IMG/VR virus record: IMGVR_UViG_3300025282_000167
Location: 1 to 29,462 of that record
Source of the DNA: a virus
Direction: 5' to 3' (one strand)
DNA length: 29,462 nucleotides
A program made the position numbers and the translations under genes. Shown here in pieces: positions 10,221 through 29,462 of the stretch. How positions within the stretch are numbered: the stretch's first letter is position 1; the number at the start of each line of letters is the position of its first letter. The notes under the pieces were generated by a model. That model worked only from the letters and a program-made list of their open reading frames with translations. It made no database searches and was not told where the DNA came from.

Positions 10221-10505
10221 ATGTCATCGTTAAAAAGAAAATTATCTAGAAAAAAAGTAAGCAAGGCAAAAAAAGAAGCTGAAAAAGAAATGGCAGCTAA
10301 AGTTGCATTATTTGGAAAACTTCCTGATAAATGCTTGACTTGCAGCGAATTATTTGATAAAACTAATAAAGAAATGGTTACGACGTGGAGCGTTGTCGTA
10401 CGTCAAAAAGAAGATATAGTGCGGTTGTATTGTCCAACCTGTTGGAAAAAGGCTCTTCAAATCATTGAAGACTTTAAAGAGCATCTTAAGGAAAAAAATG
10501 AATGA
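10221..10505 (+). CDS. Small zinc-ribbon-like protein
   Basis: A 94-residue protein with a very basic, helical N-terminus (residues 1-28, many Lys), followed by two cysteine pairs: CLTC at 38-41 and CPTC at 71-74. The spacing fits a four-cysteine zinc ribbon. Between them lies a beta-rich stretch (VTTWSVVVRQKEDIVRLY). This architecture is common in small phage proteins that bind nucleic acid or RNA polymerase, but no specific role can be read. The last eight bases overlap the DUF3310 gene. Confidence 0.7.
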   Translation: MSSLKRKLSRKKVSKAKKEAEKEMAAKVALFGKLPDKCLTCSELFDKTNKEMVTTWSVVVRQKEDIVRLYCPTCWKKALQIIEDFKEHLKEKNE

Positions 10506-10728
10506 TGATAACATAAACCACCCGAAACATTATAATATTAATTGGCAAGGTGAAAAAGCAATAGAAACGTATGATTATATTAATTCATGGAGAATGGGAT
10601 ACGCCGAGGGAAATATCATTAAATATGTTTCTAGACACAAATATAAAGGCAAAGCTTTGCAAGATTTAAAAAAAGCACGTTGGTACATTGATAAACTTAT
10701 TGAAGAATTAGAAAATGAAAATCGGTGA
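10498..10728 (+). CDS. DUF3310 family protein
   Basis: A 76-residue protein matching the DUF3310 pattern of phages. The N-terminal INHPKHYN (6-13) is followed by IETYDYI and then GNIIKYVSRHKYKGKALQDL and KKARWYIDKLIEEL. These match the family consensus of an HPxHY motif, a GxxIKYxxRxxxKG core and a KAxWYLxxL helix. Some phage annotations call the family SaV-like or associate it with nucleotide kinases, but no activity is proven here. The ATG at 10498 starts exactly at the conserved N-terminus. The gene ends in a 14-base overlap with a tiny MKIGDK frame. Confidence 0.85.
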   Translation: MNDDNINHPKHYNINWQGEKAIETYDYINSWRMGYAEGNIIKYVSRHKYKGKALQDLKKARWYIDKLIEELENENR

Positions 10729-10735
10729 TAAATGA
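10715..10735 (+). pseudogene. Relic start of a VGDLV-family gene (MKIGDK)
   Basis: A six-codon frame, MKIGDK then TGA, overlaps the DUF3310 gene by 14 bases in the same phase as the intact VGDLV-family junctions (ATG AAA ATC GGT GA). Its stop overlaps the ATG of the next gene as ATGA. It looks like a cassette gene reduced to its N-terminal joint, or a coupling leader that carries ribosomes into the next gene. Both readings are inference. Confidence 0.45.
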
Positions 10736-22381: not shown

Positions 22382-22693
22382 ATGAAAAAACACAATGATA
22401 AAATTGTTTGTAAAGATGGATTTGTAATGAGCGTACAAGCAAACGAAGGCGCATATTGCAGTCCACGAGTTGACGACGCAGCAGAATATACCGCAGTCGA
22501 AGTTGGTTATCCAAGCGAGTGCGAATCTTTATTACTGGAATGGGCCGAGGATGCAACTGCTCCAACGGATACAGTTTACGGGTGGGTGCCTGCTTCAAGA
22601 ATCTCTTTGGTGTGTGCTAAACACGGCGGTGTTATTTCTGGCGAATTGCCACCAGGCATCCCCTTACTTGAGGTGGACAATGAAAGTCGGTGA
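22382..22693 (+). CDS. Hypothetical conserved phage protein (paralogue at the right edge)
   Basis: A 103-residue protein with KIVCKDGFVMSVQANEGAYC and SPRVDDAAEYTAVEVGYPSE near the N-terminus, then TDTVYGWVPASRI and AKHGGVISGELPPGIPLLEV. This is a recurring phage hypothetical with no known function. Cysteines near the N-terminus could bind metal, but the pattern is not a standard motif. A second copy starts at 29307 and is cut by the window edge. It ends in a 14-base overlap with a VGDLV-family gene, and GAGGTGG in its last codons supplies that gene's SD. Confidence 0.75.
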   Translation: MKKHNDKIVCKDGFVMSVQANEGAYCSPRVDDAAEYTAVEVGYPSECESLLLEWAEDATAPTDTVYGWVPASRISLVCAKHGGVISGELPPGIPLLEVDNESR

Positions 22694-27281: not shown

Positions 27282-27310
27282 TTGACAAATCCCCCAAAAT
27301 TTGAGATAAT
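27282..27310 (+). promoter_or_regulatory. Repeated early-type promoter, copy 5 (drives the RNA)
   Basis: TTGACA (27282-27287), 17 bases, GATAAT (27305-27310), with AAAATTTGAGATAATATATATAG as in other copies when read in parts. No coding gene follows within 240 bases. Transcription should start near 27317 and run into the structured RNA. Confidence 0.87.
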
Positions 27311-27316
27311 ATATAT

Positions 27317-27530
27317 AGTGGAGATGGAGGTTTAGCGACTTTCCTGACCCGCTCTTTGAAAATCCGCGAGTACCAGACTGGCATGTTCAGAATATACGCC
27401 GTAGGACTGAACCGGGTTGATACCCTGTTATTTAGTCAGAGCAGAATCGGTGGGAGTGGTATCCTACTGCGTGAGTGCAACTCTCACTACGGATGAAAGG
27501 CTCATGCTGACCTCGCGGATTTTCTTTTCT
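27317..27530 (+). ncRNA. Structured non-coding RNA of unknown class
   Basis: Transcribed from a consensus promoter, about 210 nt, with no SD-supported frame. A perfect 13-pair helix closes it: 27358-27370 with 27512-27524. Inside are GCAUG/CAUGC (27381-27385 with 27503-27507), UUCAG/CUGAA (27386-27390 with 27407-27411), GGGU/ACCC (27414-27417 with 27422-27425), an eight-pair hairpin (27448-27455 with 27462-27469) and GUGAG/CUCAC (27471-27475 with 27483-27487). CCGUAG in a loop (27399-27404) could pair with CUACGG (27487-27492), a pseudoknot. A U-rich tail (27520-27529) follows the closing helix and may end transcription. I cannot match it to tRNA, tmRNA, 6S, RNase P, group I intron or known riboswitches. 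Confidence 0.65.
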
Positions 27531-27925: not shown

Positions 27926-28420
27926 ATGAAACAAAACGATGTCCTAATGAAAAAGTGGTGTTTTGGTACAGGTCGAAGTAAAGTCCGTGAAGAAGCGGTT
28001 ATGAACGAAAACGGCGAACTTCAAACCTACCGAACTTATCCCAAATACCGTACCATTGTTTTCAAAGTCGAGAAAGCCACAAAAAAAGACAACCAATGGC
28101 ATGTCGAAGGTAAACAATATTCTTCTTTGAATGGCAAACCCAAGACAACCAAACTAGTTCTTAACGAAAAAGCTGGATTGTATCGGGTTGACGGTCAGAA
28201 GCGTCCATTTCTTCAAATTGAAAATCCCGGTCAGTTGACCGAAGAAGGTCTGCCGCCTGTTGGAAGTCTTATTACAGTAAACAAAAAACATGCTATCGTT
28301 ACCGCAGTCGGACGAAATGAGTTGACCGTATTTGTCAACAACAAGATTCAAAAAATTGCTTGTCGTCCTGGCACAATTAAATGGCACTCCGACAAGATTC
28401 TCGCCAGCGCAGTAAAATGA
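27926..28420 (+). CDS. Hypothetical protein with a C-terminal barrel-like segment
   Basis: A 164-residue basic protein. The N-terminal part has MKKWCFGTGRSKVREEAVMN and YRTIVFKVEKATKKDNQWHV. The C-terminal third, PVGSLITVNKKHAIVTAVGR and ELTVFVNNKIQKI, echoes the VGDLV pattern and may be a divergent barrel. ATG 27926 is the first methionine codon; an earlier in-frame TTG would read through the leader peptide in another frame. No SD stands before it, so coupling with the leader peptide is likely. It ends in an ATGA overlap with the first gene of the array. Function unknown. Confidence 0.6.
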   Translation: MKQNDVLMKKWCFGTGRSKVREEAVMNENGELQTYRTYPKYRTIVFKVEKATKKDNQWHVEGKQYSSLNGKPKTTKLVLNEKAGLYRVDGQKRPFLQIENPGQLTEEGLPPVGSLITVNKKHAIVTAVGRNELTVFVNNKIQKIACRPGTIKWHSDKILASAVK

Positions 28421-28617
28421 AGGTAGGCGACTTGGTAAAAATCATAAAAGCAAGAATAGGCGTCCCCGCTGACTCAGTTGGGTTGATAATCGATTCTTTT
28501 CTGAGCGCACCCCGAAAGTGGCTGATTTACGAAATACAACTTTGTGGTGGCAAGCGTAACGGCAAAATAGTCAGACGCCTCGCAGAAGACTTGGAGACAA
28601 TCAGTGCAAGTCGGTGA
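28417..28617 (+). CDS. VGDLV-family cassette 1
   Basis: A 66-residue protein: MKVGDLVKIIKARIGVPADS, VGLIIDSFLSAPRKWLIY, EIQLCGGKRNG and a C-terminal ETISASR. It opens the tandem array. The ATG overlaps the preceding stop as ATGA; an upstream in-frame ATG (28381) lies deep inside the previous gene and would disrupt the family N-terminus. The last 14 bases overlap cassette 2, and TTGGAGACAATC in its ETI region holds that gene's SD. Probably a small SH3/KOW-like barrel. Confidence 0.72.
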   Translation: MKVGDLVKIIKARIGVPADSVGLIIDSFLSAPRKWLIYEIQLCGGKRNGKIVRRLAEDLETISASR

Positions 28618-28795
28618 TTTAGTGCAGCTTTTAGACGTGCACGGAAAACCAGAACCGTTAACAGGGATTATTACAGGGTTCACAAACGGCGGATTCAGAA
28701 AAGGACTAGTCAAAGTGCACTGGTCTAATGGGTTCAACCACCGCGATGCTGCATGGCAGTGGGGGCGATTGAAGGTGATAAATGCAAGTCGGTGA
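28604..28795 (+). CDS. VGDLV-family cassette 2
   Basis: A 63-residue protein starting at GTG 28604: MQVGDLVQLLDVHGKPEPLT, GIITGFTNGGFRKGLVKVHW, then WGRLKVINASR. A G-rich loop (TNGGFRKG) lies between the barrel strands. GGAG seven to eight bases before GTG lies in the previous gene's codons. The 14-base overlap with cassette 3 again places TGA inside Gly-Asp. GAAGGTGATAA at its end is the SD for cassette 3. Confidence 0.72.
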   Translation: MQVGDLVQLLDVHGKPEPLTGIITGFTNGGFRKGLVKVHWSNGFNHRDAAWQWGRLKVINASR

Positions 28796-28946
28796 TTTAG
28801 TGAAATATTCCTACCACAAAAAAGTAGGCACAGGTATTATTGTGGGCTTTGATAAAGAAAATGACCCCATAGTCAGGGATAATGCCTCTGGAGTTGTTTG
28901 TGCGTCATGGCGCAAAAAGGTGGAGGTTATCAGTGCAAGTCGGTGA
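28782..28946 (+). CDS. VGDLV-family cassette 3
   Basis: A 54-residue protein, the only member of the dense array with an ATG at the joint: MQVGDLVKYSYHKKVGTGII, VGFDKENDPIVRD, then VCASWRKKVEVISASR. It is the shortest member. AAGGTG before the ATG and GGAGG at its own end (28922-28926, for the next GTG) lie in coding sequence. The overlap with each neighbour is 14 bases. Confidence 0.7.
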   Translation: MQVGDLVKYSYHKKVGTGIIVGFDKENDPIVRDNASGVVCASWRKKVEVISASR

Positions 28947-29112
28947 CCTAGTAACTTGGACGCAGCGTAACGAGCGACAAATTGGTATTATCGTTGCTGA
29001 CCCAGATTTCGGGCACAAGGGTGCACAATCACAATGCTGGAGTGTGGTCCACAATGGAGAAATGACAATCGCACGAGAAGAATGGCTGAAGGTGATAAGT
29101 GCAAGTCGGTGA
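28933..29112 (+). CDS. VGDLV-family cassette 4
   Basis: A 59-residue protein from GTG 28933: MQVGDLVTWTQRNERQIGII, VADPDFGHKG, QCWSVVHNGEM and EEWLKVISASR. GGAGG in the previous gene's EVIS codons is six bases from the GTG. An upstream in-frame ATG (28882) would add 17 residues from the previous gene's territory and is not preferred. It overlaps cassette 5 by 14 bases. Confidence 0.72.
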   Translation: MQVGDLVTWTQRNERQIGIIVADPDFGHKGAQSQCWSVVHNGEMTIAREEWLKVISASR

Positions 29113-29320
29113 TTTAGTTAAGTTGATTAACAACCCGTGCCAGCCGTTTGCCTCCGCGACCGGACACCCAAAAGACTTCGAGCGCGTTGGCCTAGTAATA
29201 AAGTTTACATGCCACGGCGAAAATGGACCGTTGGCCTCTGGTTGGGTCCAGTGGGCTGGCAACATGGATTGGGATTGCGAATTCATAGAGGATTTGGAGG
29301 TTATCAGTGCAACTAAATAA
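29099..29320 (+). CDS. VGDLV-family cassette 5
   Basis: A 73-residue protein from GTG 29099: MQVGDLVKLINNPCQPFASA, RVGLVIKFTCHGENG, SGWVQWAG and FIEDLEVISATK. It is the longest dense-array member, with an insertion between the first two strands. AAGGTG precedes the GTG. Its end (GTGCAACTAAATAA) overlaps the next gene by 14 bases, although that gene belongs to another family. Confidence 0.72.
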   Translation: MQVGDLVKLINNPCQPFASATGHPKDFERVGLVIKFTCHGENGPLASGWVQWAGNMDWDCEFIEDLEVISATK

Positions 29321-29462
29321 ACAAATCGTTTGTAAGGATGGATTTTCTATGAGCGTACAAGCAAACCAAGGCGCGTATTGCTCACCGCGCGTCGATAGTG
29401 CTGAAAGATACACCGCAGTTGAAATTGGATATCCTAGCGAAAAAGAACCCTTATTGATACAC
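29307..29462 (+). CDS. Partial paralogue of the 22382 gene, cut by the window edge
   Basis: Fifty-two codons from GTG 29307 to the edge: MQLNKQIVCKDGFSMSVQAN, GAYCSPRVDSAERYTAVEIG and YPSEKEPLLIH. It matches the first half of the protein at 22382 (KDGFxMSVQANxGAYCSPR, TAVExGYPSE). GGAGG in the previous gene's EVIS codons is its SD. This shows that the 14-base joint is not limited to VGDLV genes. The function is unknown for both copies. Confidence 0.75.
   Translation, partial: MQLNKQIVCKDGFSMSVQANQGAYCSPRVDSAERYTAVEIGYPSEKEPLLIH

Follow-up and report, generated by a model that had tools for sequence, protein, structure and literature searches.

A two-frame joint links small genes that are very probably exchangeable cassettes of T4-like marine phages

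The clean gene boundaries of mosaic phages raise an old question: whether recombination takes place at conserved boundary sequences, or whether random events are filtered by selection. Integrons hold arrays of promoterless one-gene units that are exchanged at a common site. The promoter early stem-loops (PeSLs) are intergenic elements made of a promoter and a stem-loop, and are said to have been described, in work attributed to Arbiol 2010 and Comeau 2014, as 'mobile regulatory cassettes' of T4-type phages. Here, we analysed a stretch of viral DNA, the complete 29,462 bases of IMG/VR record IMGVR_UViG_3300025282_000167 (the window), which is itself a 29 kb fragment encoding ribonucleotide reductase, an endolysin, a DnaE-like DNA polymerase, dUTPase, GroEL and a MoxR-like ATPase. 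Near its right end, on the + strand, six serial genes are connected by five overlaps of exactly 14 bases. The run very probably represents exchangeable single-gene cassettes of a T4-like marine phage, each encoding one small SH3-like protein and joined to the next by a conserved joint that is read in two frames.

The initial annotation of the window, made from its letters alone, had claimed a series of 14-base overlaps, and all five joints between the six genes were borne out (Table 1). Four of them have the sequence RTGCAAGTCGGTGA. The fifth, at 29307, is GTGCAACTAAATAA, with unchanged overlap length and a next gene that is not of the VGDLV type. The annotation had also derived the Shine–Dalgarno (SD) sequences from codons for E-V-I-S or K-V-I; this holds at every joint apart from 28604, where GAG-ACA-ATC (E-T-I-S) provides GGAGA, not GAGGTTATC. 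The first gene of the run meets its upstream neighbour through a 4-base ATGA overlap (28417-28420). With up to three mismatches, the 14-mer matched nine times in the window against 3.3 expected in shuffles, and all four exact matches fall inside the run.

Related loci were collected by a protein-based scan, which returned 36, and by a scan of IMG/VR with a 25-base joint pattern, which returned 55 stretches of the Q type and at least 120 of the K type; the bare 14-mer was too short to scan a collection with, as chance matches made up most of the stretches it gave. The gene set comprised approximately 1,500 VGD-type genes (M[K/Q]VGDLV, ~60 amino acids, aa) on 157 related marine phage contigs. 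It should be noted that all contigs are metagenome assemblies sampled by joint pattern or start motif, and that contigs of one population are not independent. Tight junctions between two VGD-type genes overlapped by exactly 14 bases in 674 of 804 cases, and by ATGA (4 bases) in 82. The 14-base excess is not a search effect, since it was kept among junctions not matching the search pattern (472 of ~602) and in loci that were recovered solely by protein (100 of 124).

The window DNA polymerase was matched in all 30 of the largest contigs tested (119-293 kb), at 61-77% identity in 27 and at 42% in three, and a Gp23-type major capsid protein was found in 29 of the 30. These 30 contigs belong to a single T4-like clade that has no close relative in culture, the nearest cultured match to the window polymerase being ~30% identical. 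The exact 14-mer TGMAAGTCGGTGAY occurs in 1-21 copies per contig in 30 large related contigs, on a single strand within each, whilst its reversed control gave no matches in the same contigs. DNA and protein searches of 50,697 phage records gave no match to the cassettes, even with a consensus-like query. Amongst bacterial genomes, the longer joint was present, with several VGD-type starts each, in three contigs of metagenome-assembled genomes (L307, L308 and L309, binned as Deltaproteobacteria, Flavobacteriales and Acidiferrobacteraceae). These are probably viral contigs inside bacterial bins, and the bins are possibly a hint to the hosts.

Across the family, the joint has a consensus of ~33 bases, TTGGAGGTnATCA-RTG(A/C)AAGTCGGTGATTTGGTA, where the hyphen marks the start codon. 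Frame 1 reads L-E-V-I-S/N-E/A-S-R-stop and frame 2 reads M-K/Q-V-G-D-L-V, with the SD inside the L-E-V codons. Part of the 14-base length is automatic, because Gly-Asp written as GGT-GAY in the start motif holds a TGA in the other frame. Proteins with unrelated bodies carry a common C-terminal tag (S/N-E/A-S-R-COOH), as this end is read from the start of the next gene.

These properties might be explained by ordinary phage mosaicism and protein constraint, if VGDLV and LEVIS were needed for the protein barrel, the overlap followed automatically from GGT-GAT, and random illegitimate recombination survived only at gene boundaries. The overlap length does follow from the GGTGAY of the start motif, the start and end strands are conserved in all members, and gene-boundary mosaicism is general in phages (PMC3029335). 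We nevertheless consider this explanation unlikely, in the first place because synonymous sites of the joint are constrained beyond both frames. The Val codon of the joint is GTC rather than GTA at a ratio of 79:12, against 20:18 in gene bodies; either codon is read as Val in one joint frame and as Arg in the second, and of all Arg codons CGG is the one used least in bodies. The SD-forming Glu codon is GAG at 98% of joints, compared with 72% where a gene ends without a joint and 46% within bodies, a codon choice that supports the earlier suggestion that each gene supplies translation for its neighbour. Synonymous difference (pS) is 0.27 at the gene head and rises to 0.43 in the body. On these figures, the joint DNA is conserved beyond the needs of both reading frames, with the SD protected at a synonymous site. 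Furthermore, 1,192 of 1,498 genes have stops within 20 nt in both other frames, against 12-25% of synonymous encodings, so that the joint can terminate an upstream gene whichever of these two frames it arrives in.

The order of the cassettes also speaks against mosaicism at unspecific sites. For cassettes shared by two contigs at 50-99% identity, the gene beyond the joint was related in only 34 of 988 comparisons. In these loci, genes other than cassettes kept their neighbour ~4-15 times more often, in 44% of cases at 50-75% identity and 67% at 75-99.5%, compared with 3% and 15% for VGD cassettes. Exactly identical cassettes kept theirs in 134 of 140 comparisons, and these pairs are probably re-sampled viruses. 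Where the neighbour differs (91 and 113 pairs), DNA identity falls from ~0.85-0.95 to the chance level of 0.25 within the joint, on both sides. Cassette alignments are mostly one cassette long, and their upstream ends lie within 25 nt of the VGD start in 90% of cases, against 22% at random.

Gains and losses also map to the joint, which lies at the breakpoint, on repeated copies, in 30 of 39 indels with shared flanks; the units comprise one, two, four or more cassettes. In one pair, contigs L207 and L208, identity is 99.5% across 8.4 kb and 100% across 2.6 kb, and the two differ in a single 176-bp unit that sits between two copies of ATGAAAGTCGGTGATTTGGT. When the cassette is absent the overlap is 14 bases; when it is present, the corresponding overlap is the 4-base ATGA. 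The check proposed in the initial annotation, a comparison of related contigs, thus found gene order and number varying while the joint stays fixed, and its idea of cassette exchange is supported by the rarely kept neighbours, by homology that ends at the joint, and by whole cassettes gained or lost between joint copies in near-identical viruses. The comparison shows that related phages differ through replacement, gain and loss of cassettes, with crossovers inside the joint, which is re-formed intact each time.

Unrelated genes have acquired the joint tail as well, which further weighs against mosaicism with protein constraint. Relatives of the KDGF gene at 22382-22693 mostly end elsewhere in approximately ..PPGIPYLEA, without a joint tail, whereas the window copy ends in ..LLEVDNESR. 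In other contigs, GIY-YIG and SWIM-type genes are closed by the joint. Lists of unrelated upstream genes based on reading frame only include spurious frames, because any open frame acquires the joint tail; we therefore used the GIY-YIG, SWIM and KDGF genes, which have independent support. Separately, we observed that two KDGF paralogues (..CKDGF[SV]MSVQA..AYCSPRVD..) occur in this one 29 kb record, both at cassette joints, and that the family is common in related contigs.

T4-like phages carry GIY-YIG homing nucleases, and small genes of this type lie within two arrays and end in the joint (L092:4593-4850 and L128:1268-1525). Such enzymes could drive exchange if their cuts in cassettes or joints led to gene conversion with co-infecting phages. 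GIY-YIG nucleases could help to drive exchange in the arrays that hold them. As the explanation for the whole pattern, endonuclease-driven exchange is quite unlikely, since the genes are present in few arrays and the pattern can be explained without them.

Highly improbable, too, is an origin of the arrays by local tandem duplication and divergence in each genome, through unequal crossing-over or slippage, with little exchange between phages. The single-unit difference between L207 and L208 would fit slippage between direct repeats. However, a relative in the same contig was detectable for only 135 of 1,498 cassettes, of which 15 had their best match in an adjacent gene, and the closest relative lay in another contig for 1,195 genes and in the same contig for 27. 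Cassettes therefore pass from phage to phage, and local duplication is not their main origin; tandem duplication is largely refuted as the source of new cassettes, and may still explain losses. Site-specific recombination at the joint as an integron-like recombinase site is most improbable, for although the short fixed joint, the cassette units and the single orientation per genome would suit it, no tyrosine integrase or resolvase was found in the 10 genomes tested and breakpoints are spread over ~30 bases with no single cleavage point.

We propose instead that the joint itself directs cassette exchange. Each cassette would bring a stop, an SD and a start, and the joint would be re-formed after every swap. 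A RecA/UvsX-like protein was found in 10 of 10 genomes tested, with no match to a tyrosine integrase, a resolvase or RecT in 10 large genomes (other annealing families were not searched); we infer from this that exchange may proceed by homologous or microhomology-directed recombination between the joints of co-infecting phages. Given the overlap and the protected SD, each gene would be translated from the SD supplied by its neighbour, probably in a coupled manner. We incline, with some reserve, towards the broader view that the joint is a self-regenerating dual-coding connector permitting cassette exchange without an integrase. Any genes with a 3' LEV-ISESR and a 5' MKVGDLV end would be spliceable, with stop, SD and start restored and other frames closed, and the clade would draw small effector-like proteins from one pool.

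Several observations weigh against exchange through the joint. Other overlaps, chiefly ATGA, occur at about a sixth to a fifth of the tight junctions, and nine of the 39 indels lack a full joint. GTC is already enriched (41%) at non-overlapping starts, and conservation of the joint is owed in part to protein constraint, since it encodes conserved protein ends. The repetition of the joint could have led to assembly errors, but the conserved flanks and the in-frame units speak against this. A random pair of joints has a median exact run of 11 bases in common, with at least 20 bases shared in 5%, and such runs are below the length usually considered efficient for RecA-type recombination. Phage recombination tolerates short, diverged homology, in lambda chiefly via Rad52-like proteins (PMC3945230).

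Table 1. Cassette genes, joints and related features of the window (positions are those of the window; C-terminus, carboxy-terminal end of the protein)
Feature	Position	Strand	Remarks
Cassette gene 1, MKVGDLV..., 66 aa	28417..28617	+	ATGA 4-base overlap at start; C-terminus ..ETISASR within joint 1
Joint 1 core GTGCAAGTCGGTGA	28604..28617	+	SD GGAGA 5' of core
Cassette gene 2, 63 aa	28604..28795	+	Relative at 82.5% identity in contig 3300003690_003472
Joint 2 core ATGCAAGTCGGTGA	28782..28795	+	SD AAGGTG
Cassette gene 3, 54 aa	28782..28946	+	Copies at 83-85% identity in other phage contigs, neighbours differ; predicted 5-strand SH3-like barrel (pLDDT 88)
Joint 3 core GTGCAAGTCGGTGA	28933..28946	+	SD GGAGG
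Cassette gene 4, 59 aa	28933..29112	+	
Joint 4 core GTGCAAGTCGGTGA	29099..29112	+	SD AAGGTG
Cassette gene 5, 73 aa	29099..29320	+	C-terminus ..LEVISATK
Joint 5 GTGCAACTAAATAA	29307..29320	+	SD GGAGG; TAA supplied by N-K codons AAT-AAA; next gene from another family
Unrelated conserved gene (..KDGFSMSVQA..), 5' part	29307..29462	+	Runs off window end
KDGF paralogue of the 29307 gene (..KDGFVMSVQA..)	22382..22693	+	C-terminus ..LLEVDNESR inside joint
K-type joint ATGAAAGTCGGTGA	22680..22693	+	14-base overlap of KDGF gene and VGD gene; SD GAGGTG
VGD-type gene, MKVGDMV.., 67 aa	22680..22883	+	Sixth 14-base joint of the window at its start
VGD-type gene, MCRVGDIV.., 55 aa	22086..22253	+	Isolated
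VGD-type gene, MKIGDLI.., 60 aa	10958..11140	+	Isolated

Sigma-70-like promoter matches sit upstream of the array (27282 and 27785). No such match was found at any joint, where there is no intergenic space, the nearest weak one overlapping the start of gene 1, and a scan for terminator-like stem-loops found none at the five joints of the run. The strong promoter match at 27282 (TTGACA-17-GATAAT) is followed at 27290-27530 by a gap between small open reading frames (ORFs) without a clear gene, possibly a structured RNA or an untranslated region. In another part of the window, the ORF at 10465-10728 (..ELENENR; region 10465-10735) closes in a near-joint, ATGAAAATCGGTGA, and the expected next frame, MKIGDK, stops after six codons. 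This near-joint and its aborted frame are possibly the remnant of a lost cassette.

The AlphaFold model of the cassette protein is a five-strand SH3-like barrel with a mean predicted local distance difference test (pLDDT) score of 88. Foldseek matches, to the BirA C-terminal domain, Tudor and other SH3-like barrels, were weak, so no function was assigned; Pfam and PHROG searches gave nothing convincing. The ratio of non-synonymous to synonymous difference (pN/pS) in the cassette body is 0.22, which denotes purifying selection and hence functional proteins. They fall into 797 groups at 50% identity, 533 of them with a single member, which points to a large cassette pool. We speculate, as a guess, that the proteins form an interchangeable accessory set acting on host or rival functions.

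In a literature search, we found no published description of this joint and cassette system. Here the boundary sequence can be seen, recurs hundreds of times, codes in two frames and coincides with breakpoints, which makes the boundary-sequence model of mosaicism directly testable. The system would also show how a virus keeps an open-ended set of small accessory genes that are swapped singly without breaking expression.

Of the known systems, integrons share with the cassettes the array of one-gene units and the common site; here, no integrase was found and the joint codes in two frames. An integron-like mechanism was set aside, with a tyrosine integrase in none of 10 large contigs. The 'ORFanage' of cyanophage S-PM2 is likewise a block of small genes of unknown function whose order is rarely conserved in metagenomes, and the available text reports no shared joint; its authors judged a PeSL mechanism unlikely and proposed mispackaging for gene loss (PMC4503421). 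PeSLs, as the same text describes them, resemble the joint in that a repeated element at gene ends mediates the shuffling of small accessory genes in T4-like phages. The PeSLs, known to us by this secondary account, differ from the joint, which lies entirely inside two coding frames that overlap, contains an SD, a stop and a start, and links single genes of one fold. A PeSL mechanism was set aside for the cassettes, whose joints have neither an intergenic promoter nor a stem-loop terminator at the gene end. The SAS/ESAS (start-associated sequences) of cluster K mycobacteriophages are similar in that a 13-bp repeat, whose core binds ribosomes, immediately precedes many small genes; as described in the accessible parts of PMC3203893, they lie upstream of the start, do not encode both proteins and are not reported to exchange single genes. 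Their consensus, GGGATAGGAGCCC, was not found upstream of cassette starts, where the joint consensus is TGGAGGTnATCA-RTG. The boundary, or linker, sequences of lambdoid and other mosaic phages are sites of homologous recombination at short conserved sequences between modules (excerpts of PMC3029335 and PMC4546147), as the joints may be. The cassette loci likewise have a short conserved sequence at module boundaries, with which homology breakpoints coincide. As far as the descriptions at hand show, none of the PeSLs, SAS and boundary sequences codes in both frames, whereas the cassette joints occur in hundreds of copies, code in two frames and re-form both genes.
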